DNA of 64,000 nt. Source: Argopecten irradians (Eukaryota > Mollusca > Bivalvia > Pectinida > Pectinidae). Shown here piece by piece: positions 8,245 through 63,424 of this stretch. The translations under genes were made by a program, and so were the position numbers. Positions within the stretch are counted from its first letter, which is position 1; each line of letters opens with the position of its first letter. The notes beneath the pieces are model-generated. The model ran no database searches and was not told the DNA's origin. It saw only the letters and a list, made by a program, of their open reading frames with translations. The stretch is taken from the NCBI RefSeq assembly GCF_041381155.1, contig NC_091134.1:56059944-56123943 (forward strand), in the 5' to 3' direction.

Positions 8245-8546
8245 TTAACTAATTAACACAATTCCTTTTGACGGAGAGTGCATATTTTGTCGAAAGAAAT
8301 TCCCAAACCGCTCATATAAATTGATCCCGTCAGCAAGTAGAGGAAATAACCCTACCAGTGACAGAATGATAATTCCGACTGTAGCCACATACAAGGCCGA
8401 TGGTCTTGGGTCACTTGCACACACAAGACTGCGCTTATAAGAGGTAGTATTCTTCGCATCAACTTCTGTATTTTTCTTCAGCACATCCAATCGTTCCGTA
8501 AGCTCTTCCTGTGTAGTAATGACGGGTGTGTAGGTAGTAGGACAAG
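8245..8546 (-). CDS. Gene A last exon: juxtamembrane, transmembrane and tail
   Basis: The exon opens with ACPTTYTP. A charged stretch EELTERLDVLKKN could form a short helix. Then come SLVCASDPRPSALY and a hydrophobic helix (VATVGIIILSLVGLFPLL), ending in a tail of about 25 residues with the last sense codons VLIS. Cys-x-x-DPR just outside the membrane and P...D..N at its inner edge are shared with gene B. Confidence 0.85.
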
Positions 8547-11500
8547 CTGTGAATACATTAGTGGAGATTATTGTTATACATTACAGAATGGAAAGCAAAG
8601 ACAAATCCAAACACAATCACAACCTAAATTCACCAGAATGCTAAATAGAAAAAAAATATATCATCCTCGCACCTTGGACAAGAAAATCTCCTGTGATGCC
8701 CAGTGCAGATGTTTCTATCTTATCCGATCTGTCTCGAACATTGACGTGATCATTGGCGAAGTTTTACCCCATTCATCTTATAGTCCGCGTATGTGACGTC
8801 ATACCGGAATATGTGACGTCACACACTTATAATAAATATTTTTATTAATTTGCAGTCATTATATTACTATGTATTATTAAATTGAGTATTCGAAGAGCAT
8901 ATGAAGTGGATAACAGGCTTTGAGCTTCTCGGGCTTAGATTTAGCAACATTCCAACCTCGGTTAACGCCTCAGTGGGCATTATGTTACGAAGTCTTAGCT
9001 CTCGATTTCAATCACTGCAATAAATAGATTTCCTTATTTTAAATAAATTAAAATGCATATTGCAATCGTTTATTATCAATGATTAGGATTTTTACTATTT
9101 GACCAAGGGAAGAGAATTTTGGGTAAGCGGAAAAGTTAATATCAACGAACTAAAGTCCACATTATTATTTAGTTTGATTAGTTTAACATCCTAGAAACAT
9201 CTAATGTCATTTATGTCAGGTTGTGATGGTGGAAAAACCGCCGACCATGAAACTGTTTCTCATTCGACTTCGCGATCCAGCAGTGAAAGGCTTAAGGTAA
9301 TATATTGGGACATATTAACCGTTCGGCCACTGCGGCACCTCACATTATTAAATGAAAGCCCGAGTATATATTGATATGTGATTGATTAATTAGAAATTCG
9401 CATAAAAGTGGGATAGTCAAAAACGCATAATCGATGGAAGTAACATTATATGTGTTGTTCATTCTGTCTGATATTGTATTAGTGTATTTAGTCTTCATCT
9501 AGTCCCAACTATCTGTCCACAAATACGTGACTACACTAACCACATATCACTAACGCAATCGGTTAACGAGGAACAGTCAACATATACCGTAAGTAACATA
9601 CGTCTGTAATGGAAAAGTCTTATCGAGTAACTACTTCCTCTCAAGACTTCTGAAACTATGAATGCAGTATCCATTTTGTAATCAACAACTACTGATATAT
9701 TGATTCCTGAGGTAAATGCACTTTCTCAGGAACTTTCACCAAAAAGGAAAAAAGTCATAACTCAAATGTCTTGGTCATAGTTTAGATTTAATAATAAAGG
9801 ATTGCTTAGAAAATGCTACTTATATCTTACCTGCGCATACAGGTAGGGTACCTGTCCACACACTTCCCGAACAGGTATGTATCTGATCCCCTGACGTCAT
9901 CGTGTAGCCGCTGTAACATGAGTAGAGAAGTCTACTCCCGTGGGATGTGTCCTCATACAGGAAGTTTGTGTGTGTTACAGCTGTTGGTTGACCACATACA
10001 CCACCTGTTACAGTAGCCGTAGTCTTCACTGTAAATAGCAAAAACGACTCGGCTGTGACTCAATAACACCCATCCTCGGTACTCTAGGGCTATGTCATAG
10101 TAAAACTGAAGGCAGCTCAGCGCAAAAATCTGAACGATTCAAAGGTCTACAAATATCTCCTTTGAAGACTACAAAAAGAGCGACGCCAAACTTCAAAGCC
10201 ACATAGTCAACTTTTGTGCACCGTTATACCGCCCATTTGATGCACATCAAACAACTAAATTACATGTGCTGTTCTGTTGCCTCAAGTTTTACAATGAGAT
10301 AGTCCATGGGGATAGAGATCGTAAGTGATCGGAACCCCTGAAGTATCGAGGATGAATAAAACCATGCTTTAACTTTTTTTAACAGTTAAGAAAGTAAATT
10401 GTTTGAGCAAAATTAAATAAAAAGAAATTGTTCTTATTTGTAATTGGAAGTGATTTATGAGTTTTGTCGGTAGGTATTCCTATTTTTGATTATTTGTTTC
10501 TAAAACATTACCATTGTTTAAAAAATCGAGTTCAATGTTCTGTTTATTCCATGCATTGCCTATCTTTAAGGACCAAGTATAGTTGTTTGATATTTCGACA
10601 ATTACAATTCCAATAACAAAATGTTACATCCATGCTTTATAGCATTTTCAATTCAAAAGTTAAAAGTTGATATGTTACCTGTAGTGGTTGCGCCTTCAGT
10701 AGTTGTGGTTTGTGTTGTAGCTGACGGAGTGGTAGTGGGATGATGAATTGTAGTAGACGGTGGACTTGTAGTTGTTTGCTCGGTAGTCGTGGTAACTGGT
10801 ACATTGGTTGTTTGCTCGGTAGTCGTGGTAAATGGTACTGTGGTTGTTTGCTCGGTAGTCGTGGTATGTGGTGCCGTGGTTGTTTGCTCGGTAGTCGTGG
10901 TAGGTGGCGCTGTGGTTGCTTGCGTGGTAGTCGTGGTAGGTGTCACTGTGGTTGTTTGCTCGGTAGTCGTGGTAGGTGGCGCTGTGGTTGTTTGCGTGGT
11001 TGTCGTGGTAGCCGGTGCTGTGGTTGTTTGCGTGGTAGTGGTCGTAAGAGGAACGGTAGTTGTTGTCTGAGTGGTTGTTGTAGTTACTTCTGCAAAGATG
11101 GTTTGTTTAAAGAAAGAGATTATAAGATAATGTGGGACTCGCCCATCCACTCCAACATTTTACAGTAAGCTTCTAATTGGTCAATGCATTGGAAACGATT
11201 GATAAAATAAGATATTCTGTTGACTCATCAAAAGTGCAAGCCAGTACGTTTAAGAATTGCATCAAAAGACATATCAATCCAAGATTTCAGAAAAAAATGT
11301 GCGAAGGCCATTTAACACACAATATATAATCCTGATGTTCACGAATGTTGAGAAATGGTACGATACGATTAATTCGATGAGAATGGAGGTTAAAAAAGAT
11401 ATAATTTGAAAATTAATCTATTGATGGTAACAATGTTTACCATCAACTTTGAGATTACTTTATACAATAATCAAAGTACTCAAAGTACTGCAAATACAAC

Positions 11501-14500
11501 GCAACAGAAACAGAAAAATAGAATGTAATCAAATGAATTTCCAAAATCAAAATATATAAACCATATTATAAAGACTTTTATATCAAATATTTCAAGAACA
11601 TTCAACTGATCACAAAAAAATACATATGTTTTGTTTAACATTTTTCTTGATTTTAAAAGTTCCTACATGAAAATTACAAAGAAAACAAAAGTCTTCATTA
11701 AAATGAGTTTTTATCCAATACTCTTGTTTCTTATGTTGCTCATACACTTATTTTGGTAAAACCACGCATACATGAGGGCAGCCTTATAAGTTATTTTGCC
11801 TTTACCGCAGATCTGTTTTTAACATGACATTTAAAACATTATTTTAAAGTACACAAAAAGGGTATATGATTAGTTTACTTTAAAACTCTTATGTCTATAA
11901 GCCTTAGATAGTAAGTGCAATTTGAATCATCATAAACAGAGATTATGTAAGTTGGATAGAGGAGTCTCCAACAGGCACAGTTGGGGAGTACTGGCATAAG
12001 GTACAGTGATGACCTAGATGGGCTGTGTATTATATAGCACTCTGTGTATTTTATACACACTCTGTGTGTTCTACCAATCAGAAAGCGGTCTTCCCATGAC
12101 TACTGATTGCTCCAAAGTAATATTATTCAATGAATAGGAAATTTATGAATGGAAGTTTATGAATGAACTGGTTCAAGAGGTCACCACTAGATGTCATTTT
12201 AGGGCAAGTCCTACTCAGTCCTACACATCAATAGTAAACCGGTTAGCAATAATACAAACGCTAGTCGCGTTGCATTAAAAATGAGTTTTGACGCGTGATT
12301 TTATTATTTCCTTAGAAATGAGTTCAACCAAATTACCACGTAACGTTAATGTCACTAACTTTATCACAATTTATTAAGATTGTGAATAAACATAAATATA
12401 TATACACCATTTCTTTTATCGTGATATGTGTATAAAGCTACTTTGCTATCGTAGATTATTTGGATGTGTTCCACGTCATTATACTAAAGCATGAAAAAGA
12501 AAACTAATCATTACTAAATTGATTTGGCAGAATACATCATTGATGGCGGAATAATTCTGCATTAGGTAATTATTGAACAAAGGCGTATCAAAATGACAAT
12601 AGTCACCTGTTTTACAATCCCTGCCACTCCAGTTAGGGTCACACGTGCATGCAACATCACCGGTGCTCATAGTAGCAACACAACTTCCATGTCCACATGC
12701 ACCGTTAACTGGAATAATTACATATTGCTATAGATCGCTATAGACTACAAAGTTCAAATCAATTATTCACAATATTTGTGGTTGATAGAAAAAAATTAAA
12801 CTCTTAAAGGCCCACGAAATTTCCGAAACGAAAATTTAATGTTTATTACTAAGAAACCAATAATATCTATACAAATATTAAAATCGTCTTACATTCGTAT
12901 TAAAAAATAATTAAATCCTGTTTTATTTAAAAATAGGTACGTACTTTTTAAGACCTTTTTAATTTCAAAGTAGTGATGCAAATCGAACCTAGCTTATAGT
13001 TATTACAGTTCTACACCTATCGCCATCTTCTGAAAACATTAATAATAAAATAAATCATTTTTTAATTTAAACGCGAGTCGTCTTATGTTTCCCATCGTTG
13101 TCCTAATTACTGCGAGTTAGTTTACTTCAGGTATTTCTGCGCAAGACGGCAAAGCAGCGAAGTGAATCTTTTGTGAAGAATATAACTATGGATTCCACCA
13201 GGAATCTATCATTTATTTGATTTTTTAACATCATCCTTTACCGTCGATATTGTTTTTGTGATGCTATTATTGCTTTGCTATTATTGTTTTAAGAAACTTT
13301 TATTTTTTTTTGTTGAAAAAGCAGTGGGTTTTCAAAATATGTACATTTAATAATACTGATGACATAGATTCGTTACAGTTTTAGATAATTGAAAGTAAGC
13401 TTTCATAACCACATCGTTATTAAAATGCATGTTGTTTTCGGATTTATAGTATTGAAAAGAAAATATTTCAGCCTTGAAAAGGCATCGCTGTTAGTGTGTA
13501 AGTAATATTAGCGTTATAGGAACTCTACGGAAAATACAATAATTAAAGTATTGTATTTAGTATTGGAAGCAAATTGTGAAATTACCTGTGTCGATGGCAA
13601 TCATAACTCGTATTGTAACCTCCGCTGTATCAGACATTTGGTTCATATGTCCACCCGCCCACACAGTATTATGGTAGACCATTTTGCCGCTTGATGAGTC
13701 GGATGGTCGCCACAACAATATCTGATTCTCTGTATAGACATATACAACTCCGCCGAACGCAGCAAAACTTCCATCTGTCAAAGCATTGCCCAAACCATAG
13801 AACCGGAATCCGGGATTGTTCCCATCTGATACTGTGATCTTTGAATATAAATTTCTCAATTTAAATCCAATGTCGATCAAGAATTTTTTAGAATCATTTT
13901 CTTTAATTGTTGTTCCAAATATCCGAAATCGCTTTTTCTTTCCGAGTTATTAAAGGCCCATTTGGAAGTATAAGATTATCTGTGCCTATACCTAGGTTTT
14001 AGAACATCATGTTCTGTTTAACTTTCAATCTACCGTTATGATAAAGATATAAAGCTATGTACAATCATCACATTAAAAATGACAAATAGCGCGTGTTCTT
14101 CAGTTCTTCATAGTTTTAGGCAATGAGTTTAAATGCTTTATTAAGAGCAGGTATTAATTCCTTACTTACAGTCACTGTAAAGAGGACATATTGGCTAACA
14201 AAACACAATGATACTCGAGAGACCGTTACTGTGATAATTATATTAGCACATCCCTGCCACAGCAGAGCTTTTAGGAAGATATTTATTACTTCAAACGTAC
14301 CAAAATAAGTCGACTTTTCATGATAATAACGATGAGTTATAGTATTGATAAGTCGACATATCATGATAATTACAGGTAAGTTGACTAAAAGTCGACTTGT
14401 GTATCATGATATGTTGACTTCTTATGAGAAATGTGGCGAGATAATTATCATAAAAACATAATGTTCTTATTTCCGTTATTTCGCTAAATATAAGTTGGTG

Positions 14501-17500
14501 TCAGAAATATTCAACCATGGATATTAAATCTAAATTGTCCAATAAGATTACATGAGTTTTACCTCTGTTGACAACAGTATACCGTCCGTGTCAAAATCAG
14601 TCCCAAAAGGAATTTCATAGGTGCTTGTAACTCCGAGACCCATTTCTAAAGTATACTGAAATAAAATCTCTGACGCAGGAAATATCCAACAAATGATTCT
14701 AAATTTGCCTGAAGAATATCTCCAGTCGTCATTTTCTCCCCAACCATCAAACGCATTGAACACGTATCCTGGAAAATACCACAAATTTCATAAGAGTTAT
14801 TGTTGATGTATCAATGATAATTCTTAATCAACAAACCACGTTTGTTTACCAGAAACGCATGTAAATAATATCTCTAAAACCTTTTCTTTTATATTTAAAA
14901 GTCGAAAACATAATATTATAAATGATTAAAAATAAATGGTTAAAATATTATCTTTTGGGGAGAATTAAAAATATATAAGATAAATTATTATCGATAGTCT
15001 CAATAGTGTGGATATGAAATTATTCGCAAAATGCATAGGCAATTAGGGTATTTACGCATGGCTTTAGTGAAAACAATGATATGCATTAGAAGAGAGATCG
15101 TGTGTTTTCTTCAAGGAAAGTTTTTCAATTTCTCATGAATTGCCATTGTTGCAAAATTTTTAACTCTAAATATTAAATGATAAGTTAGACAAGTATATTT
15201 TGGTTCATATGAAATTTTGATTTCTTTAAGATATAATTTTCTTTAATCATATCAAAATTGAGTCATTTTACCTGCAAAATTACCGACGATACGATATTTG
15301 TAAGTTGGAAAGATCTCAATTCGCAATTTAACACTTTAAACTCACCACCAGATGAAGCCCACAGTCGTATTTTGGTCGTGTCATACCCAAAGATAACACC
15401 TCCAGTCTGGTAATTGGTGCCGGTGTTAGACACTCCAGCACTGCCTACAAGGAAGCAATTAGAACAATAATATTAATATTATACCATATCAATGTATGGA
15501 GGTATTTCGGTCTTTTTTTTCCAATTACATCAAGTTTACCAACGTAGATTAGATGACAAGTAATTGTGAATATACAATGTATGCTATATCAGTTACTGTA
15601 CATTTTCCTTTATGTAATTTGAAATGAAATCAAAAATGCTAGGACATGTATCATACATAATTATGTGTCCATATGAATATTTCTCGACGTTTAAAACCAA
15701 CCAAAGGATATAACCGAACTTTAAAGTTCATGATTCCAATCCCACACGGACGTTATACACAAAGGACTATGCATGATTTAGGCGTTTTTAGGTACCATGA
15801 TAATCATCTTAAATATACATAAATCAAGCTATTTCGGAAATTTTATTGTCATTGTTTGCCTACTTGTGATTATTATTTTACATAGTCTTGAACAGTTTTT
15901 ATTTACTGACAATATGTAGGCACCTCAGACAAAATTGACCAAAATACAAAATGTCCACGTTTTGTCCACGTTTTTCATAATTTTTTTATAAATTGTTGGT
16001 TTGTAAAAATGTTGGTTTGTAAGCCAAAAGGGGCACAAACCATATATAGTCTTTTATATCAAGTTCTCCATCACTGTAAAAAGGAAATTTCTATCATCGG
16101 CCATTCAACTCTCCTCAATCGGTTATTCCTCATTGGTTCACTTGTACTTGGTGCAAAGTCGTTTATAAAATGTGATACTTTAATGAAACAGCAATCTTAG
16201 AGTCATTGAAAAGCATAAATTGTGTAGAGCCTGCTCTATGCAATGCTCATAGTATTAGCTCCTCGACCAATGCGTCACATATAATTAGACTTATTTTACT
16301 AATGCAAAATTGTTTTGAATTACATGTAACTCTCCGGACGATAAACGGTTAATATAAGCAAATCAAAACTATAAGGCAATTTTTAAAACGTGATTCATTA
16401 TATGAAGGTATAATGAATATCGCATTTGTAGCAAAACCCATAATTACATTATCTTTTATAAAAAATGTATATTTAAACATAAAATATGTTTAAAAATTGT
16501 TAAATTAAGTAGACGAACATTTCCTTTCGTGGCCGAAATGCTATAAGTCATATAATATGTAAACATATGTACTTATACATACGTTATACTATAGGACTCT
16601 TTCATATGTGAATATATTTCCATTCTACTTTCAGTTTCCCGTTTAATTTATGTTAAACCAGATGGGCAATATCTGGCTATGAACTCCAATCTGGTCAAGC
16701 GTATGAATATTTGACGTTTCCGCTGCGTCACTGAGAATGTATACACTGTATACTTACGCCTATACATAACGGTCAAATATTTTTAAAAGTGGTTTTAAAG
16801 TTGTGCGGTCTATGAAATCTAATGATATTATCGTATTGACAAAATAACATGTAAAAAAAATATTATCGCATAATTTTCATTTGTTAGCTTGTTTCAAACC
16901 GTTTTGTGTTGAACTATATTCAGAATCTGATGCTATGGCTGTTCCGTTTATTGAACTTGGTGACGTCAACACTAGCGCAAGCGGGAAATTCAAAAGATAT
17001 ACATGTATAGTTTTGAATTTGAATGATCGTAATGGAAATATAAGTAATAAACTGTTACCAGATTGGACATACAGTTGATATGAAGCCCATCCGTCCGAAA
17101 GATAAATATTCATGGCGCCCGTTAGGGCGCCATTCTATTTATCTTCCTTCCGGATGGGCTTCATATCAACTGTATGTCCAATCTGGTAACAGTTTATTGC
17201 TTAAATGAACGATAGTGTTATTCTACCCGAGATAAAATGTTGTTAAACCCGAGGCTTTCCGAGATTTTTACAATATTTTGTGATCCCTTGGGTAGCCGGG
17301 TAGCAATGCAATACTGTTTCAGGCGACATGCGTGTATATTGCCTGAGACCAACCAGTGATACACCTATAACTATAAGAGATAACAGAAATACAAGTATAT
17401 CATTCCACACTAGTATTGCATGATATACATGTATATGAGCAGTTAAATAACGAGCATAGACTACAGTACAGAACATTAACATTATTCTAACTTGATGAAT

Positions 17501-20500
17501 ATAACTAAAAAAAATGTGTCAAGCGATTTTCATTCAAAGTAAACGGAGACGAGATCAATGTACTCCGGTATAGCAAGACAAAATAAATAGCTTATTTAAA
17601 AAAAGCTAAATAGCATACGGATATAGTGATATTTCAAATGAAAATATAGCAATAGATATTAGACAATATATAATACAATGTGAGACATAATTAACATGTC
17701 TTTCCTTAGGTAAAAATAGCGAAAAGGACAATATTTGCCTTTCCAATATAATCACATTGAACGAGGAAGACAGCTGAAAGATCGTGTATAGTCTAATCAG
17801 TGATGAACTCCGTTTACAATACCAAACTTACTAACCTTGTGCGTCCGACATATAGTCTGTGTTATCTAGGTCAATCTGGACGGTAACTAGGTCTGGGTAT
17901 ACGCCTAAGTTGTGGGATATCTCGTGGTAAGCAGATGAACCTGGATCAAAAAATGTAATGATTATGTTCCTCCTTTCCGATTCTCCCTATAAAATTTCTT
18001 TTATGAAAAAAACCATGTAAAACACTTTGCATGATAACGCCCTAGAATACTAAAAACGTTAGTTAATTAAAATGATATTAGGTTTGTGTTCGATAAAACG
18101 ATACATAAAGAAAAAATCGAAAAGTAAGTTGACTTATTCTACGATATACAGTATGAAAAGATTACACATGAAGATAACGTTTTTTTACAGTCCAGTTAGG
18201 TCCATATACTGCGTACCACTGATCGCTGTCCACTGATGGTAAAATGCTGGAGAACCGATTTCACAAAGTTTCCAGGCGCGAACTTTCACCTCACCGGACG
18301 TGTAAGATCCACCAATAAGCGTAGACCCTGTTCTTCTTGTGCCGCCTGTAAAATTGGTAATTCATATGAAACATGGCTTGTCTGGGTTTTTTTTATTTCA
18401 ATAATACAAAATGGAAATACAATGATTGGATACCAAACAAGAGGAGTCCAATACTTGCAATGAAAACTAATTTTGATTTAAAGAGCCCCTAATTCTCTAG
18501 CAAAAACAATCTAAGTATGATAAGTAATTTCGCATCTTAATGTACTTTGGTTGCTCATGATATCTTGTTTCAGGTGTTTTTGCTTTGATAAATGGAAATA
18601 ATTAATTGATACGAACTATTAGCATTAGTAGCATAGACGGGTTTTCAGATTATATAGATTTTGAATACATAAAATTATGAAGGGAAATTTAATAAAATTA
18701 CATAGGAATACTCTTAATATTCTTAATAACCATTCAATTGGTTCAGATTCATTGACGATATTGAAATCAAACGGACCTCCAACCGACAGTCTCTCGATGA
18801 ATTTATTGAGCATGCCAACACATTCCACAATACCATCAAATTCACTGCCGATATATCATCAGATACCAATCTAGATCCACCTTAGTTGAAGGGGCCATCA
18901 GTACTGACTTGTATTCCAAACCTACTGATTCTCATCTATACCTCTGTCCCATCTGTTGTCACCCTTCGCATACCACCGGAAGCATTCCCTATTCACAAGC
19001 TTTACAAATCCGTCGAATAGTGTCCGACAATACCACCTTCGAACACCGGTGCGAAGAGATGAAATGCCACCTTCTCTCTAGAGGATAAAAATCTGATATA
19101 CATCTGATATACCAAGAAATCGACAAAGTCCGCCCTAGATAGAGCCAATCTCCTCATATACCAAACCAGAACTGCCACTCAACGTGTTCCCTGTGTGGAA
19201 ACATTCCATCCTAACTTACCACATCTCGCTTCTATCCTTAGGAACCACTGGGAAATCATTGAGTCAGAAACCAAACTTAGGCGTATTTTCCCAGAGCCTA
19301 CCAGCCTACTGCAGACCAAAAATGTAAAAGACCTTGTAGTGAGCAGCAAACTTCCTCCTCTTGCCCCTGCTGCACAAACGGGTTCATTCCAGACATGCAA
19401 CAATTAACGGTGCATGATGTGTCCATACACAGCATCCACAGACACATTTGAAAGTGTTATCAACAACAGAGCATACAACATCCGACAGAACCTGGCGTGC
19501 AAATTCAGCAATGTCATCTACCTCCTCTCGTGTAGGAAATGCACTATGCAATACGTTGGGGAAACCGGTGGTCCACTCAACGTCAGAATCAACAATCACC
19601 GCTGGTCTATCAAACAGAACAAACCTGACTATCCGGTCGCCAGATATTTCAACTTACCCAGCCATAGTTGGAAAGACATGCAGATAATTGCAATTTAGCA
19701 CTGCTCCTACTGGACACAAACAAGCAGCGTGTTCCATTTAGCGGAACGATCCGGTTTTTCCGGGACGAACCCGAGGTTCCGCTAAATGGTACATGACGTT
19801 CTGCTGGAACGAACCGATTCGTCTGGCACGTCTCATTTTAGGGTTCCAAGTTGGAACCAATATGGCCGATGGTGAAAGATGGAATTCCACTTTAATCAAA
19901 ACTCTGCATATATGTATGAAAACGTATTTTACGGTTTCTTCGCACTTCTGTTCTGTTTGAGAAACCCAGCTACGGTAATCCTATATGTTTTGCAGAAGTT
20001 ACGACTGAACTTTTCATGTCACAACAGAGAAAAGTGTGTCTTTATCAATAAACACAACGAAATTGACAGAGGAAAGTGTAATGATCGTTGTTAGTATTTT
20101 AAATATGCATAGCATTTCCAATATCATTTATTTACTAATCTTAAAATACCAGACTGTTGTCCGCCATGTTGGATTTCGTGTTCTTAGAACGTGAAAGGAC
20201 CGTGAGTGTAACATTTAACGAACCCGTTCCAAGTTTGCACACCCGGAACGTTCCGCTAAATGGAACACGCGGCAAGCGTCGATCGAGAGAGATTCTGGAT
20301 TACCTATCTACAGACCCGCTATCCCAAACGCATTAACGAACGTTAAATATACTAATTGACATCAATTGATCACTCGCTTTTCAATTAATTATCCCTACTT
20401 CCAGCATTTTCCCGTTCTGTTCTACGCGTTTCTGATCCTTTACATACGCTGCCCGCCAAAAGGCGACTAAATCTAGGACTTTGCTTCTTTGCACACACAC

Positions 20501-24870: not shown

Positions 24871-27745
24871 TGACTCTCTATATGAATGTGAATAAAGAAT
24901 TTTCGACTGTTTTCACATGGAATTGCTTGAAAATCGTTACAAAAATGTAAATCCCCAGAAACTATTGACCGGTCAATAGTTTTACTATTAACCAGCGAGG
25001 AATTTTTGCATGTGTTTAATTTTGATGTCATAAAATAATGTTGACGTCATAAAATGTTGTTGACGTCATGCGGTTCAGGTAAAAAAACAGTTGTTTCATG
25101 CTATATCAGTCAAGAGTGAAAACTTTCCCCCCTCGTTGTTGAGATCAACCCTATAAACTTTTCCCCTCAGCCTTCGGCCTCGGGATACAGGTCATCGGGT
25201 TGGTCCCAACACCATATCGAAAAGAATTCTAACAGTTGTTGTGTTGTATAAATATTATTCTTTAAGACATGAAGAAATGCATTTCGCTTGAAAAATGGAA
25301 GATATGCTCAAAGAAAATAATAACCTCTCCAATCCCGGTTATCCAACCGCGAGTTAAGAAAACTCTGGCTCCGATGACATAAAAACAAGTCATCTTAGTG
25401 TTCTGGCATCCTAGATCGCGATTGTGAATCTCACGAGCAATAGTCAACCGGTGAATAGCCTAGCCGTAAGTCGGGAATGTTTCCCTTCCAAAACTCTTAA
25501 ATATGATATGTTATCGCTTCCGGTTGTTATTTGGACATTTAACAAAATGTTTAAAGCAGAACATGGAAATGTTGACCAAAGCCTGACGTATTATCCCGAG
25601 AAAACCGAAACAATAACCACTCTAAAGTGGTGTATCGAGGACTACAAAATATCGCTCGAAACCTTGCTATTCAACAACATTTTTAAAGAATTTACTTTGT
25701 TATCATCTGTATGTTAATTACTTGATTACTTTTGAATAATTTGGTGCGTCACAAAAATAAATGAAATCATTAAAATCAACAAAATTTGCAATTAAAATCA
25801 ATCAAAAATTAATAATTAAAACAAAATTGAAAAGGACATTAAAATAGACAAGAAATAAGAAGGCATTTTAATGATTCTTGTTGATATATATAACACTTGT
25901 TAGTAATTAACTTCTGTACTTAAGTGTTTAACATTTTAATTGGTAACATAAGTAAAATATGGATTATTTTAGTAATAAATATAATGACTTACCTTTTAAC
26001 ATTACGAATAAATTAAGAATCAACATAAATAAAGTATACATCTCGGAGAAACAGGGAAAAAATTCTTCCGGTATGTATAATATGTCCAACAGATTAAGAA
26101 GTCGGAGTAACATATGCCATAATTCTCAAACAACCGGGATCGACATGAATTACATTTATTGAGTAAACAACTAAATGATATTGATACTATCAACAAAATA
26201 AGATATATTGATCACTCAAATAAACAAGTCCTTTTGAGCAAATTTATGAATACAGATATGAATTGACCTACATTCTTATATGGTATATCGATAACCTATC
26301 AGGAAGAAACTAAATACATTGCGAACAAGCAGTTTGGCGATTTATGAAAAGATCGTACTTCGGTTTAGTTTTAAGCAAAGTTTCATGTATTGTCTTGTTT
26401 TTTTTATGAATATGTTTAAGTTTTGGTTATGCAACATCAGGTGTCACATGTCAGTTTAACAATATTTATCTTAAATTACAGCGCGTGAAGATAACACATA
26501 TTAATTTAAGGTGTGTACAATGCCGTCCATCTCCCATTTTTCATCAGAAATTGTTGTAAAAAGGACGGTACATGCGACAATGTCTAATAGAATTCGCATA
26601 TTTCTTTTTATCTGAATCAGGTTAAACTTCGTCCTATTTGAAAATTACCTTTTGGGTTGATTTTATCTTTTTTTTTATCTGAATCAGGTGAAAGAGTTCC
26701 ACGGCACTACGTCCTCTTTGAAACTTAGCTTTTGTTACACTTTTATGTCAAACATTTAATAACATGAGATATCCAAACACACGGGTTCATGTTGAGATAA
26801 ATTATCTTGAAAGGAGAAAGTCATGGAGCAAAAATAAAATAATAATAGTAAAACAGAATAAATATATAAAATGAAATGAAATATTCAAAATATTTTATTG
26901 AACATAAAAAAGCAGAATATGTACATTATACATGACGATTGATGATATTTGAGACGAGTACAAAATACTCAACAAATTGATATGATAAAAATATCATCTT
27001 TTTCCAAAAAAACGATAACATTATGATAATTTCTGATAATCAAATAGAAAGCAGACAATAAGATCACTAATTCTTTTTTCTGAATTAAATTCATCATTTT
27101 AGTTAATAAAACTAACTTCATGGCGGTAATATGAAAACTACGTTCGCGTAACTATGGACGCAATGCTATGTTATGGAGATAAGCCAAAAACTGTACAATA
27201 TATTGGAGAGAGAACTGTATCGAGGCCCGTCAGAACCGAGATCTTTTCTCTCTGCAACATATTGTACAGTTTGAGGCTTATCTTTAATTTAAAAAATAAC
27301 AAGTCTTTGTGTTAATAAAGTACATTTTCATTTCTAATGTACGCCAGTTTTTTACATTGAATTCAGAGGATTTAAAATTTCGACTTCTCTAGTGACAATC
27401 TTGGATTTATTTATACCATGTGCAATTTCATTCGACAAGCCAATGGGATTTAGGTGAAATTCTGAAATATTATTGAAACAATATCAAAATAAGTGTAAAA
27501 CTACAGTGTAGATTATTTGGAAATTTAAAATCAAAGGTAGTGTACAAAACCAACAAGGTTTTCAGAAAGCGGAAATTGGAGTTAATCCTGTAGACGAGTG
27601 TTTAATGGTGAATTCATAATAAGGAGGAAAACTCGAACTGGGATATATACAGAAATTCAGTGGATGTGTTTAATTCTGCATCAAAAGAGGATTAATTTCT
27701 CTTCATATTCATTGTGAGGGATTTTTTTTCGTAATTTGGATTAAA
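24871..27745. other. Spacer between genes A and B, little recognised
   Basis: Two TGACGTCA sites lie at 25042 and 25061. A CCTTCGGCCTCGGG apex-like word at 25170 recalls the nearby palindromes. A loose inverted pair around ACTGTACAATATATTGGAGA is at 27180-27285. TTTTTATCTGAATCAGGT is duplicated at 26605 and 26672. The missing first exon of gene A could lie here or between 21360 and 22085, but none was identified. Confidence 0.4.
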
Positions 27746-27929
27746 AAGTTATGGAATATTCCGGTGTAACGTTGAAAATGGACCCCCGTTGAAAACTGAC
27801 CTCGGATCATTTTTCAACGTTGAAAAATGACCCCGAAAACCGTTGAAAACTGAACTTTAAGCGCACTTTTTATACCGACCCGTTGAAATTAGACCCCGTT
27901 GAAAAGTGACCCCATAAGAACTCGTTTTT

Positions 27930-29030
27930 ACAACAACATAACACGACACCACAACACCACGAAACCACACAACATCACACAACACATCAACACACCAACA
28001 ACACACCAACACTACACAACACAACACCACACAACAACAACACATCACACAACACAACAAAACACAACAAAATAACACAACATCACATTACACAACATCA
28101 CACAACATAACATCACACAGCACATCAACACACCAACAACACAACAACACATCACACAACACAACAAAAGATACACAACATCACACAAAATAACATCACA
28201 CAACACAACAACGCATCACACTAAACACAACATCACACAACACAAAACCACACAAAACAAGAATACATTACACAAAAACACGACACAATATCACAACAAA
28301 ACATCACACAACACACAACACAACCACACCACAACACACAACCACGCAACAACAATACAACATCCAACAACAACACTCAACAACACAACATAACACAACA
28401 GCACATCACACAACATAACACAAGAACACATCACACAAACACGCAACAACAACACAACACCACTTAACAACAACACATAACACCACAACAACACAACACT
28501 CCTCAAAACACAACATTAAAACAAAACATCACACAACAACACATAACACAACACAAAACACAACCACAGCACACAACAACGCAGCAACAATACAACACCA
28601 CCCAAAAACAACACAACAAAATAATACACAACAACACAACACACGACAACAACACACTACATAACACAACACAAAATGACACAACAAAACATCACACAAC
28701 AACACATCACACAATACAACAACACACAACACAACCACACCACAACACACAATACAACAACAATACAACACCACCTAACAACCACAACACCCGACAATAA
28801 CACAACATCACACAACATAACGCAACAACACATCACAAAAACATCACACAACACATTACACAAACACGGAAAATTAAACAACACAACACAAACACAGCCA
28901 CACAGCATAACACAACACACCAATATCACACAACACAATAACATAACACATAACAACACAACACACAACAACACAATAACACACAACATCACACAACAAC
29001 ACAACAACACACAACTAATCATTATCATTA
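27930..29030. repeat. Low-complexity (ACACAACA)-type tract, about 1.1 kb
   Basis: Nearly every base on the plus strand is A or C, with interspersed CATCACACAAC words and very few G. This is not a simple fixed-period microsatellite. No protein is credible from it. Confidence 0.9.
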
Positions 29031-29324
29031 ATCATTAAGAAACAAATTAATAATATACCATAATTATAGTTTTGTAACACTATCCACTGGTACTCGGAAG
29101 TGAACACCACATAGTACAATATTTTCAAAAGACCATCCGTTGATAGTTTGCCAAGGTCATTTTTCAACGGTCATTTTTCAACAGACCTGCCGTTGAGAAT
29201 TGACCCTAGACACTGTCAATTTTCAACGGCATGTTCAATTTTCAACGGCATTCGGGGTCCGTTTTCAACGTTGAAAACTGACCCGAGGTCAATTTTCAAC
29301 GGAGGTCCATTTTCAATGTTACAC

Positions 29325-29552
29325 CGGCAAGTTGTGTGTTAACGTAATTATGGGATTATGCCCGGAGACACATACTCACCCGTATTGTGTAACTCTCCCA
29401 TAAGTTACCTTTTACTGTCTTATAAGTGACTGTCTTCTATTAGAGTCACATATAAGACAGTAAAAGGTAACTTATGGTTGAGTTACACAATACGGGTGAG
29501 TATATGTCTCCGGGCATAATCCCATAATTATGTTAACACACAACACACAACC
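29325..29552. repeat. Long palindrome with arms of about 90 bases
   Basis: The arms run from TTGTGTGTTAACGTAATTAT to its inverse. They contain GGATTATGCCCGGAGACA and ACCCGTATTGTGTAACTC, and meet around a loop near 29420-29440. Arms match closely. It interrupts a CCGG at the right edge of the surrounding foldback element, so it came later. Confidence 0.75.
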
Positions 29553-29571
29553 TGCCGGAATATTCCATAAC

Positions 29572-30175
29572 TTATAGGACAGTTATAGGTAATGGTCCCA
29601 TAATCCCGGAGTTAAAGTACAGAAGCAATAATAGATGACATCACAACTATGTTTTCACGACATATACAAACACTATAATATAGTTAAAAATTATTTGACG
29701 GCTATTTTTAAAATTTGTCTTTCGGCGCTTGGAGTAGAGTCATTTTGACCCATATCTTACATCACCACTACGACAACATTAGTACACGTATCGAGCTTAT
29801 GTTTGCTCTACAAAGTTCATTACAATAATATACTGTTATGTTTTGCTTCATGTGTTTGGGGAATGTGAAAGTGAGAGACAGCAACACGTCCATTCATTAT
29901 GGTTTCCTTTTATTCTTCTCAATTCTCTATGTTTTACAACAAAAGAGTTCTAAAGTTCCAAATGTGATTTAGAGTTATTTCCGCTTTGCCCACAACTAGA
30001 TCGTTTCATCACTCATTCCAATACAATACTATAACAATACTGTTTGTCTAACAACAAATTTCTTAAGAAAAGAATACCATGTATGCTACATGTATAAACA
30101 GACAAAAAAGTTTTGAATCATGCTGTTATTGAAACATATTGTTGTGTCTTTTTTCCTCCACCTAGTTTCCAAAAA
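29572..30175. other. Gene B 3' flank
   Basis: Between the foldback element and the gene B stop codon; presumably contains the 3' untranslated region. No other feature seen. Confidence 0.4.
29909..29914 (-). other. Candidate polyadenylation signal of gene B
   Basis: AATAAA on the minus strand, about 260 bases beyond the gene B stop codon. Position only; no transcript evidence. Confidence 0.3.
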
Positions 30176-30480
30176 TTACTTTCCGATATGTATTTTGGTA
30201 CAATTCCTTTTGTTCATTTTTCTCCCTGGTTGACGCCTGTTGTTCCGAGTGTGTACAATGTTAAGTATGTCAATGAAGACAGGAAGGAGCACGAATAAAC
30301 ATATGATGAGTATTCCACCAGATCCGATATAGAGTACGGACATCCTCGGATCGTGCGCACATTCCAAGGTATGCTTGTATAAGGTTGTTGATTTGTAGTT
30401 TATCTTATCAATATGGTAGGAGTGTTGCGGACTTGTCACAGACGTTGAAGGTGTCGAGGGTGGAAATAGAGATGTACACA
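30176..30480 (-). CDS. Gene B last exon: transmembrane helix and cytoplasmic tail
   Basis: A Ser/Thr/Pro-rich start, then LECAHDPRMSVLY and a long hydrophobic span (GGILIICLFVLLPVFI), followed by a tail rich in Arg and Lys. The positive-inside charge supports an extracellular N-terminus. No kinase, ITAM-like or other signalling motif was seen in the tail. Confidence 0.85.
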
Positions 30481-33400
30481 CTGTAAATACACACCACAGC
30501 GAATATGGTAAATGTTTAAATATCCTGGTAACTGATGACTTGAGAGTTAAAAGAGGAATATTATAAAATAACTTTCTGTGCGTCGATATATTTTTAATAT
30601 TTGGGAGAATACGAATTCCAATTAAAATATTATATTCAAATTTTACTTTAAACTTTCAAAGGATGGATACATAATGTATTGTATAAATTATATAATTTGT
30701 TTGTTTCTTTAATTTGATAATACTGTTCGATCGGTAATCTCCCCAGATCAGTTTCGACATTTTGTTCGGAAAAAAACCAAAGCAATACTATATTTAAGAT
30801 TTAGAAGATAACATAATGTTGTACCTGAGCAGACCGGCAATATACCCTGCCACGAGCCATACTGGCAAACGAGTGTCAGATTCCCCGATACCAAGGAATA
30901 GCCACTGGTACAAGCGTACTGAACCACACATCCAGTCGATGTACCGTTGTGTAAAGTATGTGCATTTGTAACTGCCGTGGGTTCATTACAGTCCAATGGC
31001 GCCAACGTAGAAGTGTCGCCTAAAGAGTCAGATGTGTATGCTTGTTGACCTTGAGTTGATGAATATGTGACTGTCGTTATCTCGGTGTTCTTTAGGGGGT
31101 CAAAGGTTGTCGTGGTAGAAGTATTGTATATTGGAGTGATACCTTTGGATACTTGTGTTGTCATTTCTATAAAACCAATTAACTGAGAATGTAGGCAGAG
31201 TAACATTTGGTTGTTTGTATTGTTATGAAATATGTGATAGATAGTTTATATGTTAATAATAACCTTTTTTATATTCTAAGCTGTCAAAACCTCTTTTCAT
31301 ACTCACACTTTCTAATTTTAGTTACAACTGTGCTTGCATTGTACTGTGTTTTCTTCTTAGTGCTACCTTTTTATTTCCATTATCAATTTCTAATAAAAAT
31401 GACTCAACTACAGATCATTAAACCTTTAACTGTTACCTATAGAAAATATTGTGTAATTGAAATTACAGCACGTTCTATATACGTTTGTATCTGACTACTC
31501 TCCTATTCAAATGCTCAAAACAAAAACACGGATGCTGGAAAATCATCCATAATGTCACTTAACACTTATAAATAAGAGATAACTTTACCCGACTGGCAAT
31601 ATAACCCCGTGTGTGTCCCCGGACAGGTACACCGGACTTTGTTGCTATTGATTGGACGGGTACAGACTCCTGTGTAGCATGGTCCGTTGTCTGACAACCA
31701 GACGAGAAGTTATATGATATAGGCCATGGGCTAGGAGGGTCCCACATGCACCCCCCCAAACCTCCGAACCAATATTTTTCTTAACCCTTATGACCCACTG
31801 ACCACAAATCAAAATGTTACCATTGCATAAGTTGGGATGAGCTTCCGGTTATGACGTCATCAAGATGGTCGCCATCTCGAGTTTTACTAAAAAATGAAAA
31901 ATAGTCATAACATTGCCATTTTTCAACCGAAGTAGACAAATGAGGTATCAAAATGACCACAATAGAACAACAAATACATATCAGGACCAAATTATCCAAT
32001 ATATGTAGTGATTTTTACGCAGGAAATGAAAAAGTATGATTTTAAGCTCAAAAATGGTAATTTTTAGTAAATTTTTCATATTTTGCTTGACGCAGCAAAA
32101 ATGTTTTCCAACAGCAAACTATTATTTCTAAACAGTTTTTTTTGTCCACTAATAAATCAGTTTAACCAATAACAACAAAAAAACAATGTTAACATTGTAT
32201 AAGTTCCGGTTATGACGTCATCAAGATGGCCGCCATATCGAATTTCACTAAAAAATGAAAAATAGTCATAACATTGCCATTTTTCAACTGAAGTAGACAA
32301 ATGAGGTATCAAAATGATCACAATAGAACAAAAAATACATATCAGGACCAAATAATCCAAATACATTTAGCGATTTGTACGTAAGAAATGAAAAAATTAA
32401 ATTTTAAGCTCAAAAATGATAATTTTTCAGCAAAATTTTCATATTTGTCTTCACGCAGCAAAAATGTTTCCTAACAATTATTATCAATCGTAATCATTTA
32501 TTTGACCTCAAAGAATCCACCTGTGTCATCTATGGTCACTGAAGGTTCACAAGAATGAGGAATTGTGCTTAATATGAATCCAGGAGAACCAGCCCAACCC
32601 TTTGCAGAATGTAGATCTGGTGATCGGGGAAGTCTGGAACATCATATACGATATGTGAATCACTAGGTTGGAAACGGGAAGAGCTCCCACATCCCTGAAA
32701 CCGATGTTTCTTATGTTAACTCTGGCCATGGACGGTTGACATGTTACAACCACGATGGCAACCCGGTAATATAGTATCCCATCAGCTCGTCAGCTCATCG
32801 CCATCGAAGACAAAGAACCAGTGAAAGAAATATTTGACACTGTTAAGGAGCCATCTGACATTTCCTTACGTTATACACAGGAAATAACACTGGATGTACT
32901 CATTCTAAAAGGCACAAAACGTTTCGGAAGGTGTCATGGTATTTACGGAATGACAGAATTACCTCAGTTTTAATTTGATACCATATTACTATTAGATGGC
33001 GTTTTGCTGTAATAATTCAGTTTGAGACGCTACTAGTCTACAATATTTCAAACATGAAAATGAATTATTTTGAAGTCCCACTTAAATATTCAGCCAACTT
33101 TAAATTCAAATTTGGTAAGATATAAATTTTCAATAGCCGATTCTCTTTTGCATTTCTATATATTTTTGTTTATTTAAAAAATGTTGGGAAACAAATATGA
33201 AAAAGTTGTTGAAAAGTTTTTGAGCTTAAAATCTTTCTTTTTTTCATTTCCTACGTACAAATCGCTACGTGTATTGGATTATTTTGTCCTGATGTGTATT
33301 TGTTGTTCTATTGTGGTCATTTCGATACCTCATTTGTCTGCTTCAGTTGAAAAATGGCAATGTTATGACTATTTTTCATTTTTAGTGAAATTCGATACTG

Positions 33401-36400
33401 CGGCCATTTTGATGACGACATAACCGGAACTTATGTTAACATTGGTTTTTTTGCTGTTGTTGTTTAGACTGATTTATAAGTGGACAAAAAACTGTTTAGC
33501 AATAATAGTTTGCTGTTGGAAAACATTTTTGCTGCGTCAAGCAAAATATGAAAAATTTGCTGAAAAATCACCATTTTTGAGCTTAAAATCCTATTTTTTC
33601 ATTTCTTGCGTAAAAATCACCACATATATTGAATTATTTGGTCCTAATATGTATTTATTGTTCTATTGTGGTCATTTTGATACCTCATTTGTCTACTTCG
33701 GTTGAAAAATGGCAATGTTATGACTATTTTTCATTTTTTAGTAAAATTCGAGATGGCGGCCTTCTTGATGACGTCATAACCGGAAGTTTATCCCAACTTA
33801 TGCAATGTTAACAATTTGATTTGTGATCAGTGGGTCATAAGGGTTAAGAAAAATATTGGTTCGGAGGTTTGGGGGGGTTGGGGGGTGCGTGTGGGACCCT
33901 CCTAGCCCATGGCCTAATATTAATGCTGAATTATTACAACGGCAGGGATGCATATAATTGTGTGTATCACTATCACCATGGTTAATTTAAAACAAGATAC
34001 TAGTATTACTGTACTGATGCAACAGTTTTTTCTTTTAGTTTTTCAATATTCTGAATTTTGATATATTTCCTTTTTAAGTTAATTGTTTTCTCTATGTTAT
34101 TGTTCTTCACGTAATATATACCACAATTAACATACTAGATTTGGACTCTCACCTGTACCGGTGGTGTTATACACACGAATGAGAACTTCTCCAGACGATG
34201 AAGCTTGTGAATATTCACCGCCTCCCCAGATACCGCCAATAAAGACTATTTTACCATTGTACAGGTCTGACGGTCGCCACATCAGAACTGTATCATTGGT
34301 ATAGATATAGATAATGCCACCATATCGAGCACCGGTCCCATCAGTCTGACTGTTTCCTGCTGCCGCAAACCGAAAACCACTGTTGAGACCATCATTAACT
34401 GTGACCTTTAGAAAATGTTGTGTAATTAAATCAATATCCGGAACAAAATAATTGATATGTTATTTAGATATGAATTAATTATCAGCTTTACAATTTTTTC
34501 TTCATATGTTAAAGTTAACTTACTCATAACCCATCTAAGTGACTGTAATCATTAGATTGTAAATAGAATTCGCTTAAATAATTAATTGTAACCACACTAC
34601 GGACTTTTTTCAGCGTTAACGTTTTGGGATTATTTGATAATTAATGTTTCACTTGTAAATGCTTGTATTTGATATAACTTGTTGCCATGTGTACATCTTA
34701 CGTCAACTGTCACCAGGACATCAGTTAGATTATACTGGTGTTGCAGGTCCACTTCATACGTGTTGTCCTGGTTTTGGGCCATGGTCAGCGAGTACTTAAA
34801 CACGATCATTTCAGATGGGAATACCCACGCGAGTATCCGCACACGCCCACTACCCGAGTAGGAATGGGTGTTACTACCCCATCCATCATAGTAGTTACAG
34901 ATGGCAGCTGTAAAAGTAGCAAATCAAAATATGATAGAACTGGTATCTGTGTGTCTAAATACGGAAAATGCCTGTGAATAAATATGAATTACAGTAAAAA
35001 TGTTCGATTCTAAGTCCCTTTCAAGGTTTATTACGTCATCGTATATTACACATGTTATTTGTTCATTTATTATTAGAGCATAATTTCTTAATTTGAAGGG
35101 CTTTAGGAGAGCCTTATTGCATAAGAATATTAATAACTCTGAACAGACTAAATGCATAAGTATTTTCCATATCAGAGCTGGTGGCATGAGCTGAAGATGT
35201 ATTATCTACTCGATTTCAATGAAACTACCATCAATAGTGAGTGCAATTTAACTTTAATTATATAAAGTGTATACACACAATTCTTCCCTGTGTCTTCAGA
35301 AGTTGGTCTGCTTGGCGACCAGAGACGAACAACGGTGTCATTGTACCCGTATATAACACCTCCAATGCTGACGTATAGATCTACCCCAGTCCCGTAATAG
35401 ACTGCACCTAGGATAACAAAAATAAAATCCCGAAATCGAAAGTATGTGTGTAATTCTAACGTTTTTTATTTAATGTTACGTATTATGCTAGAGAAATAGA
35501 TAATTATTATATTGCATTAATCTTATGTCGTTTGTTTTCATAGTAAAAGCACACCAAAAAGTTTCAGTTATATATGACGAAAATGACATTCCTCATTTCC
35601 CTGATTTAAGCCAAAAATCTAACCCTGAGCGTCTGAGTACACCGGTGGTGATGTGCCTACACAATGTGTCTGTACAGTCAGCATGCTTGGATAGGTGCCC
35701 AGGTTATGGGTTACCTCTGTGTAGTAGGTGGTGTCTAATAAAGGGGTAAAAATCGGTATAAGTTCAGGATGTCATTTTTTTTCCATATTGAATGTTTAAA
35801 AAAAATCCAATGATCATTAAACGTGTTTTTAATTGAAGAGAATTAACAACAAGATAAAAATCAGATAAAATAAATAACTGTGTATTTGCATAATAGATTA
35901 ATTGTGAAACGATTTGATAATAAAAAAATACTTGGTTGGACGTATGTGGTGTTTTCATAATCAACGAATATTTTAGAAATAATACCTACCGTCAAGGTCG
36001 ACCCATTCGTACTGGAACACTGGATCACCGAAATCACACATGAGCCAGACTCTAACTCTGACATCCACAGTGTTGTACCGTCCTGAAATGCTGCCAGATC
36101 CTATATATCCATCCATTCCTTATGTAAATTGATATTTAAAAAATACATTACTGAACTTATAAAAATTAAATGATCTTCTTTCCTCTAAACCTCATTTGAT
36201 TTCAATGTAACATGCACAATTTGGAAATGCATGGAATGTAATTTTATGTTTGTACATTCCTGTTAGTTTTTATTATAATTTCTGTTGCTAATTTTGAGTG
36301 TTGTTTTAGTCGCCATCAGTTTTTATACCTTTGTTTCAAACCCTTTTCATTTTAATTTTAATCACCTTAGAATTGAAAACATAGACTTTATGTTTTTATT

Positions 36401-37614
36401 AAGGTTTAGGAGAAGGTAGAAGAAAGGATTGGCTTTAAAATATCTCATAAATATATCATAATCATCCAAGTAAGCCATTGATGTCACGAAGGTTGCTTCA
36501 GCTAAAAGAATTTCTGCCATTGCCATTCTGCAACAAATCCTGCTTTTAATTTTCGGTATCAGTATTGCAGATAATTGTATTATAAATACTTTCAGTAGAC
36601 CAGTATATAAAAAATATTCAAACTGATATCAAAATATCAGTGATATAATGATAACAATGGTGACAATAATGCTGATGACAATAAGGATGATGATGATGAT
36701 GATGATGATATGACGATGACGTTGACGGCGACGATAATAATGATGATGATGATGATCTTTACCTGTGAATGCCGCTGATCCTTTGAAGGTGTAAACTGCC
36801 CCTGGGTACCCTCCATTGAAGCTCGGCACTAGAATTCTAACAAACACTTCATTGTAAGAGTATAGAACACCGCCATAATACGTATCGGTGTCGTCGTCTC
36901 GCTGGGCAGATCCGACGCCCGAAAATACGTAATCATTGCCATTTTCGGTAACCTTAGCCTGAACGTCTACTTTAACAGGAAGTTGATTCAGATTATGGAT
37001 GAAGACTGTTTCTGATTGGTTCGCACCAGTTTGTGCTGTCAAAGTTCTCCATTCACTAGTGAACGTTGGAGAATTAATACTTGATGATTCTGCGATACAT
37101 AGGTAATAAAAACAAATACATATTATGTTTATTATTGAGAAATCAAAAGCAAATTAAAGTAAGGTTGGTTTCCATGTATTGATAAAAATGGATTAATCAT
37201 TTCTATGAAATCATACTTTGTTTCAATAAACTTTCATAAAAAGATACAATGTACAAGGTCAATGTATATTCTCGATGTTTTAAGTTAGGATAGTTTAGAA
37301 TATTCTGATTTCCCTGTATAATCAAATTAAAATAAAATTATCGATCCTTTGTAGAATATAAATACATTTGAAGAGAAATTCATCGAAACATTGGCAAATC
37401 AAAATGCTCCACCCATCGTAGTAGTTATAGTTAATTAATAATGGTACAAAAGTTATCATTCCATCGATTCTATATGGACATCGATATATTATTTACAAAT
37501 GTATAGCAATTGCACTTTCATCAATACAAACCCGTCTTAAAAATACTTACGTTCAAACAAGAAAAGCACGATACAGCAAACAAATAAGTTTAGTTGTTTT
37601 TTCAACCACATCAT
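30176..37614 (-). CDS. Gene B: complete 649-residue type I membrane protein (repeated unknown domains, EGF, sushi, TM)
   Basis: Ten coding exons: 37551-37614, 36763-37089, 35990-36100, 35624-35734, 35279-35407, 34702-34907, 34153-34405, 31589-31690, 30825-31166, 30176-30480. They total 1950 bases and join without a stop. Residues 1-21 are the signal peptide; 22-130 the first unknown domain; 131-400 two further copies spread over five exons; 401-434 a five-Cys EGF-like module; 435-493 a Ser/Thr stalk; 494-547 sushi; about 595-618 the membrane helix; then a basic tail ending KIHIGK. All introns are phase 1 except the one after 34702, which is phase 0, exactly as in gene A. The least certain junction is the donor after 35279 (GTGTGT). 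It is probably a surface receptor or adhesion protein; ligand unknown. Confidence 0.88.
30825..31166 (-). CDS. Gene B stalk plus sushi exon
   Basis: 114 codons. The first half is Ser/Thr-rich without regular repeats; the second half is a sushi module (LDCNEP, VQYACTSGYSL, LVCQYGSW, LPVCSG). An extra Cys (TSTGCVVQY) makes five in the module and may pair elsewhere. Gene A encodes the same two parts in separate exons. Confidence 0.85.
31589..31690 (-). CDS. Gene B EGF-like exon
   Basis: 34 codons: GPC, TGVC, RCTC, GTHTGLYC. It has five cysteines, lacking the first as in gene A. The acceptor lies only 29 bases from the end of an inserted inverted-repeat element, so the branch point must sit in those bases or inside the element. 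Confidence 0.8.
31720..33916. mobile_element. 2.2-kb element with inverted repeats of about 750 bp, in gene B intron 7
   Basis: The ends are TAGGCCATGGGCTAGGAGGG and its inverse. Each arm holds two tandem copies of a block of about 300-450 bp (31800-32165 and 32166-32470 on the left; 33140-33464 and 33465-33850 on the right), each with ATGACGTCATCAAGATGG or its inverse, slightly altered in one copy. The unique middle at 32471-33140 has a 60-codon open frame at 32791-32972 (ITLDVLILKGTKRF) with a weak likeness to a Penelope RT thumb. No transposase seen, so it is non-autonomous or gutted. A target duplication is not clear. Confidence 0.75.
34153..35734 (-). CDS. Gene B second and third unknown-domain copies, split over exons 4-7
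   Basis: Copy two is THNLGTYPSMLTVQ (exon 4) plus GGVIYGYNDTVVRLWSPS (exon 5). Copy three is the end of exon 6 (YNLTDVLVTVD) plus exon 7, with FRFAAAGNSQTDG, GGIIYIYTNDTVLMWRPSD and IWGGGEYS. Before each copy lies a linking strand pair with GxVRxLAW or VRVRVWL followed by F.Y.W or FKYSL (exon 3 and the start of exon 6). Gene A shows the same arrangement, with equal sizes for exons 6 and 7 (206 and 253 bases). Confidence 0.8.
36650..36760. repeat. (GAT)n microsatellite beside the gene B exon 2 donor
   Basis: An imperfect GAT/GAC/GATGAC run on the plus strand, reading ATC on the transcript, begins within about five bases of the splice donor. Confidence 0.85.
36763..37089 (-). CDS. Gene B exon 2: first complete unknown domain (109 codons)
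   Basis: After a Ser-rich linker come WRTLTAQTG, FIHNLNQLPVKVDVQ, YVFSGVGSAQRDDD, YYGGVLYSYNEVFVRI and a closing YTFKGSAAFTG. The Asp-rich run before YGG is the clearest signature and could bind a metal ion (inference). The donor GTAAAG is followed at once by an ATC trinucleotide repeat. Confidence 0.85.
37551..37614 (-). CDS. Gene B exon 1: signal peptide
   Basis: Reads MMWLKKQLNLFVCCIVLFLF then Glu, with a consensus donor GTAAGT. Two basic residues followed by a hydrophobic core make a good secretory signal. The ATG at 37614 was chosen because it gives this peptide in the phase needed by exon 2. Other ATGs just upstream give only short frames and would act as upstream ORFs if transcribed. 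Confidence 0.85.
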
Positions 37615-39737: not shown

Positions 39738-39781
39738 TAAATTAAATTATATAGTGGCCCTAATACGCCGCCGTACATTAC

Positions 39782-63369: not shown

Positions 63370-63424
63370 AGTACACAAGATGTACATCAACAGGTGTTGA
63401 CGATTTCATATCAGACATTTAGAA

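Follow-up and report, generated by a model that had tools for sequence, protein, structure and literature searches.

A tandem group of selectin-shaped predicted membrane glycoproteins with a three-repeat head absent from the domain libraries searched, in the bivalve Argopecten irradians

What kind of protein is encoded by two similar genes lying one after the other on the minus strand of a 64,000-nucleotide stretch of Argopecten irradians DNA? This stretch, called the window below, covers C1:56059944-56123943 (contig NC_091134.1) of a genome of 845.8 Mb. A first-pass annotation had described the two genes, here A and B, as a tandem pair of paralogous, undescribed-looking surface receptors. We compared them with each other, with a third copy lying outside the window (gene C), and with the rest of the genome. 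We consider it somewhat probable that A, B and C are selectin-shaped type I membrane glycoproteins, that is, adhesion or recognition receptors, carrying an undescribed head.

Both genes are predicted models, spliced from the DNA sequence. Gene A runs on the minus strand from 26041 to 8245 and has 11 exons encoding 723 residues; gene B, also on the minus strand, runs from 37611 to 30176 and has 10 exons encoding 654 residues. Their exons are listed here, D1, D2 and D3 being the three repeats of the protein head:

25993..26041, minus: gene A exon 1, a putative signal peptide ending in phase 1 (ATG present, hydrophobic run with KD19 reaching 2.2, GT donor, in phase with exon 2)
21042..21359, minus: gene A exon 2, most of head repeat D1
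18217..18345, minus: gene A exon 3 (129 nt), end of D1 and start of D2
17836..17940, minus: gene A exon 4, D2
15346..15444, minus: gene A exon 5, D2 core (GGVIFGYDTTKIRLW)
14563..14768, minus: gene A exon 6 (206 nt), end of D2 and start of D3
13586..13838, minus: gene A exon 7 (253 nt), D3
12607..12708, minus: gene A exon 8 (102 nt), EGF-like module with five cysteines (EGF_2 17.9 bits, cut-off 22.1)
10679..11089, minus: gene A exon 9, Thr-rich mucin-like stalk (81 Thr in 137 residues, 36-nt tandem repeat)
9831..10028, minus: gene A exon 10, sushi domain (PF00084 29.2 bits, cut-off 20.7)
8245..8546, minus: gene A exon 11, membrane-anchor cassette: coil-like stretch, DPRPS, predicted transmembrane helix, D, short tail, stop
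37551..37611, minus: gene B exon 1, signal peptide-like (KD19 up to 1.74)
36763..37089, minus: gene B exon 2, most of D1
35990..36118, minus: gene B exon 3 (129 nt)
35624..35734, minus: gene B exon 4, D2
35279..35407, minus: gene B exon 5, D2 core
34702..34907, minus: gene B exon 6 (206 nt), end of D2 and start of D3
34153..34405, minus: gene B exon 7 (253 nt), D3
31589..31690, minus: gene B exon 8 (102 nt), EGF-like with five cysteines (no EGF family to E 1 in one Pfam scan, one under cut-off in another)
30825..31166, minus: gene B exon 9, short Thr/Ser stalk and sushi in a single exon (PF00084 34.6 bits, cut-off 20.7)
30176..30480, minus: gene B last exon, membrane-anchor cassette (CAHDPR), predicted transmembrane helix, tail, stop

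All introns of both genes have GT-AG ends, all frames are open, and phases are identical at every shared junction. Exons 6, 7 and 8 are of equal length in A and B, which confirms with spliced models what had been annotated for this pair, and the 129-nt exon 3 was found to be equal as well. The common exon order reported earlier holds for the shared junctions but not throughout, as the stalk and the sushi domain of B are fused in one exon. The two proteins align over their full length (391 bits, E 5e-131). When segments of the minus strand of the window were drawn at random with the exon lengths and phases of gene A, the only gene submitted to this control, 0 of 20,000 draws were open throughout. 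Hydropathy predicted a signal-like hydrophobic start and one transmembrane helix in each protein. The least certain exon is exon 1 of gene A, the proposed signal exon, which lies 4.6 kb upstream of exon 2 and was proposed from its ATG, hydrophobicity, phase and splice site. A and B look like real genes. Their products share one layout: a signal-like start, three repeats of ~115 residues, an EGF-like module, a Thr/Ser stalk, a sushi domain, a transmembrane helix and a tail of ~30 residues. The C-terminal helix is preceded by C-A-x-D-P-R in both, so that translation and hydropathy bear out the membrane helix after C..DPR that had been seen at both ends.

Two repeats were found inside introns of these genes. 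An inverted repeat at 31750-33878, with 327-nt arms that are 93% complementary, sits in the large intron that separates exons 7 and 8 of gene B. The last intron of gene A holds, at ~8650-8880, a dispersed repeat (bases about 368-595 of the minus-strand query 8245-9245) with at least 39 further copies at 75-79% identity.

The head is the part of the protein that had been called a three-copy unknown domain. Its repeats follow the rough pattern 'YGGVxYxY....VRxWxPS ... W/DGWG ... VxVRxW', and they were compared as profiles: D1 matched D2 with 97% probability (E 4e-11) and D3 with 97.5% (E 8e-12), while D2 matched D3 with 95% (E 3e-8), meaning that D1, D2 and D3 are one domain in triplicate. The nine repeats of the three genes gave no plausible family in Pfam to E 5 and no match in NCBIfam; in PHROGs, five nameless families were hit, each from one repeat, at E 0.11 or worse. 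An Lsr2 DNA-binding and a YpeB PepSY family, reached by two members each at best E values of 0.016 and 0.1 respectively, were judged implausible. A PDB sequence search returned nothing to E 1. Among prokaryote and viral contigs, one short D1 pattern and two such patterns gave 302 and 76 pattern matches, with 0 relatives by tblastn, and no relative was confirmed in phage records searched with one D1 exon. Neither the head, the anchor nor the receptor is described in the titles returned by a non-exhaustive literature search. The head repeat is therefore undescribed as far as Pfam, NCBIfam, PHROGs and PDB sequences are concerned. Profile searches, on whose outcome the first-pass annotation had let its claim depend, placed the head in no well-described family, and the view of paralogous, undescribed-looking surface receptors stands, with a signal-like start, a Thr-rich stalk and a transmembrane helix all present.

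It is possible, if somewhat improbable, that the head is a strongly diverged version of a beta-sandwich fold already known from lectins or adhesion proteins, such as the H-type lectin, C1q/TNF or cadherin-like folds. Strands appear in the two weak structure models, a loose 'W .. H-x-L .. P-x-x-V-x-V' motif resembles H-type lectins, and the best of the 11 sequences found to E 5 by PDB profile search was cadherin-23. This last match is far from significant (E 0.13), no sequence falling under E 0.1. None of the 9 repeats has a plausible Pfam family, and the H_lectin model (PF09458), run over the whole genome to E 10, hit 6 places, none of them at these genes. A fold shared beyond the reach of sequence searches would escape all of these.

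The modules that follow the head are more familiar. The EGF-like module that had been annotated is present, but with five cysteines instead of six and below the Pfam cut-offs in A and B; only that of gene C passes a cut-off (EGF_Teneurin, 27.3 vs 24.3 bits). The sushi domain (PF00084) is above cut-off in A, B and C, one being found per gene. Stalk length varies, from short in B to a 137-residue Thr-rich repeat in A, and at the stalk position of C there is a 435-residue open frame with 173 Thr and 69 Ser, whose exon ends are not determined. The tails of A (NLYERF) and C (NLYKQF) carry Y-x-x-F, the kind of motif used for uptake, and B does not. No recognised signalling domain is present in the short tail.

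The tandem pair turned out to be part of a trio. A and B are tandem paralogues as annotated. The third copy, gene C, is also on the minus strand; from exon 2 to its final exon it occupies C1:56032041-56025901, about 36 kb past A and beyond the limits of the window. We placed nine exons of C, all bearing splice signals on their intron sides and, as far as recovered, laid out as in A; translation gave a transmembrane helix and a short tail. Its exon 1 was not found, and its stalk exon is known just as an open frame. Searching the genome with one D1 exon gave at least 11 places, on C1 (3), C2 (5), C10 (2) and C11 (1); one D3 exon gave at least 13, including 2 partial ones at C2:44.2 Mb and 1 cross-match to a D1 exon. 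At C2:6.289-6.305 Mb, pieces of D1, D2 and D3 (several individually weak) precede, on the same strand, three sushi-like frames, two of them above the Pfam cut-off, and an anchor cassette; no EGF exon was seen. Reading at C10:24.73-24.74 and C2:47.33 Mb also turned up head exons. The first-pass annotation had thought of an expanded, variable receptor set: with three copies in tandem and no fewer than 11 first-repeat exons, and with stalk length and sushi number varying, the family is indeed multiplied, but it is of modest size, and A and C are constrained in sequence, as follows.

Over 552 aligned codons (exons 2-8, 10 and 11), A and C share 75% of their residues, with a nonsynonymous divergence (dN) of 0.16, a synonymous divergence (dS) of 0.71 and a dN/dS of 0.226; no single exon exceeds 0.36. 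The coding sequence shared by A and C is under purifying selection in every exon compared. Pairs with B were compared over the same exons minus exon 10, whose counterpart in B is part of the stalk exon; synonymous divergence is saturated overall in these pairs, so we give no dN/dS for A-B or C-B. The differences between A and C at fourfold sites are spread unevenly over the exons:

exon 2: 17/38
exon 3: 2/22
exon 4: 4/14
exon 5: 6/14
exon 6: 10/16
exon 7: 7/38
exon 8: 5/12
exon 10: 6/30
exon 11: 18/25

With a test chosen post hoc, after the per-exon values were known, this unevenness was matched in 1 of 20,000 permutations, and in 0 of 20,000 when codons for the same residue were used. The C locus gave 14 DNA matches with the window, of which 11 were examined: eight in gene A and three upstream, at 27.2-27.6 kb. 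Each of the eight covers one exon with no more than 17 bases of flank, and there was no match for exon 11. As synonymous divergence is so sharply uneven between exons, gene conversion between A and C, exon by exon, is suggested as the simplest reading, exons 3, 4, 7 and 10 being those of low divergence.

Synonymous-site constraint, or mutation specific to some exons, could also leave these four exons with few synonymous differences, an explanation that we find unlikely. It has in its favour that the intron flanks of the four exons are unalignable past about 10 bases, so that no converted tract runs into the introns. Conversion too would end where homology ends, and a range running from exon 3 to exon 11, so rarely reached by permutation, speaks against this explanation. 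Exon-wise conversion remains our preferred account.

The membrane anchor recurs across the genome. As a genome query, the last exon of gene A found 66 places at E <= 0.01, itself included. A blended query, a hand-made mix of neighbouring anchors on contig C12 (150 of 196 candidates being scored), found 79 places at E <= 0.001, on 15 large contigs and a small one. This query hit both A and C; B was found only with the gene A exon, and 12 of the 79 places lie at C12:31.83-31.99 Mb. In addition to A, B and C, we aligned 19 sequences taken from 18 loci, 22 sequences in all (a further locus, L079, fell outside the search pattern and was dropped), and obtained a core of roughly 'lSStiRkktsA-x-DpRPSaa-x-vGy-x-G ... 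L ... D'. Upstream of it, 13 of the 19 others have C-x-C-x-C and 5 have C-C-x-C, a cysteine cluster that A, B and C do not have, and 13 of the 19 show a Thr-rich stretch (at least 12 Thr in 40 residues). Elsewhere in the genome long Thr-rich open frames precede the anchor, the longest read having 1118 residues, part of them perhaps non-coding; some anchor-bearing frames extend into repeats and may not be coding throughout. No Pfam cut-off was reached by four anchor cassettes, those of A and B included, nor by the cassette of the C2:6.29 locus. The DPR-helix end is found genome-wide and is therefore no mark of this receptor family; to judge from its sequence matches, the anchor is a shared module, reused in dozens of places and undescribed in the libraries searched.

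How might such a protein work? Three homologous domains of ~115 residues, probably all-beta, would form a membrane-distal head that may bind an extracellular ligand, be it a glycan, the matrix or a microbial surface. The EGF-like module would connect this head to a mucin-like stalk of variable length, with the sushi domain near the membrane and the reused anchor exon providing the predicted transmembrane helix and short tail. Since the tail carries no recognised signalling domain, the protein would act by adhesion or capture, possibly followed by endocytosis, and the selectin-like module order together with the Y-x-x-F tails of A and C leads us to infer the same role. An immune role would be plausible. 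The locus would have expanded by tandem duplication, with A and C probably exchanging sequence exon by exon.

Three observations weigh against this receptor reading. With five cysteines, the EGF-like module may not adopt a normal EGF fold. Over the 6-7 kb downstream of D3 at C10:24.73-24.74 and C2:47.33 Mb, we detected neither an EGF exon nor a sushi or anchor exon, so that head-bearing genes need not all be receptors. Finally, structure predictions of the head, made on single exons with small window-only alignments, were poor (mean predicted local distance difference test, pLDDT, of 43.6 and 48.5).

The three proteins could instead be membrane-anchored matrix or gamete-recognition proteins, of the egg coat, the shell or the byssus matrix, and not receptors of immune or blood cells; this we regard as rather unlikely. 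Proteins of the extracellular matrix and the egg coat commonly contain EGF and sushi modules and Thr-rich stalks too, and the anchor stands elsewhere behind the long Thr-rich frames described above. Mild arguments to the contrary are the transmembrane helix and short tail of all three products (by hydropathy in A and B, by translation in C), and the Pfam matches of A and B, which include no matrix-typical domain besides sushi and a weak EGF. As for the gene models being artefacts or pseudogenes, their basis in DNA alone, the uncertain first exon of A and the missing one of C would allow it, but exons open in phase with GT-AG ends throughout A and B, the same pattern in the placed exons of C, the random control and the A-C dN/dS make it very improbable.

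Several other features were noted around the genes. Just upstream of gene B, at 38029-39775, a 21-bp unit whose palindromic core is TTGTACGTACAA occurs in two arrays, at 38065-38547 and at 39359-39739. Together they make up inverted arms of 422 nt that are 94% complementary and enclose ~900 bp, and this looks like a foldback or terminal-inverted-repeat element. Between A and B, 27930-29015 is a long low-complexity stretch with units of the ACAAC/ACAACACA type, and the 4-kb block 28001-32000 has a GC skew of -0.256. Further away, 1636-2487 and neighbouring plus-strand frames at 449-3289 have the look of a retrotransposon reverse transcriptase, as judged by eye from the translation only, and 60667-64000 contains tandem arrays with ~145-146-bp units, one of which has 12.8 copies at 61382-63251.

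If the selectin-shaped receptor reading is true, an unnamed domain and an unnamed membrane-anchor module would be added to the catalogue of animal surface receptors, together with an instance of convergence on selectin architecture; the exon-wise mosaic of tandem copies would represent a route to receptor diversity without somatic rearrangement. The anchor motif is also a simple handle to list the stalked surface proteins of the lineage. A bolder proposal, improbable when taken as a whole, would be that a new ligand-binding head made a selectin-like receptor independently of C-type lectins, that the anchor exon is shared by dozens of stalked surface proteins of this lineage, and that tandem copies diversify by single-exon gene conversion.

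Expanded recognition families of bivalves include C1q-domain proteins, FREPs, C-type lectins and SRCR proteins; two related papers are PMC10140915 and PMC10855680. Like these, A, B and C are multi-copy, multi-domain extracellular proteins, but the defining domains are not among the Pfam matches obtained here (no C1q or fibrinogen-related domain in A or B to E 1, or in the nine repeats to E 5), and the family is modest in size. With H-type lectins the head has in common the loose motif, seen by eye only, the corresponding model matching neither the genes nor the repeats.

The closest resemblance is with the selectins. The vertebrate L-, E- and P-selectins have a head, an EGF module, sushi domains, one transmembrane helix and a short tail, a layout for adhesion. 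The architecture that the first-pass annotation could not match keeps an unknown head, but its module order is close to that of selectins. A and B differ from them in having no Lectin_C match (Pfam, to E 1), the head being three copies of another domain; all three genes differ in the mucin-like stalk placed between EGF-like module and sushi, in the single sushi found in each and in the missing EGF cysteine. They agree in a distal head, a sushi domain before the membrane, one predicted transmembrane helix and a short tail; the module after the head resembles EGF but passes a Pfam cut-off in C only. A selectin-shaped membrane receptor is a kind of system already known, to which this locus would bring a head and an anchor new to the libraries searched.

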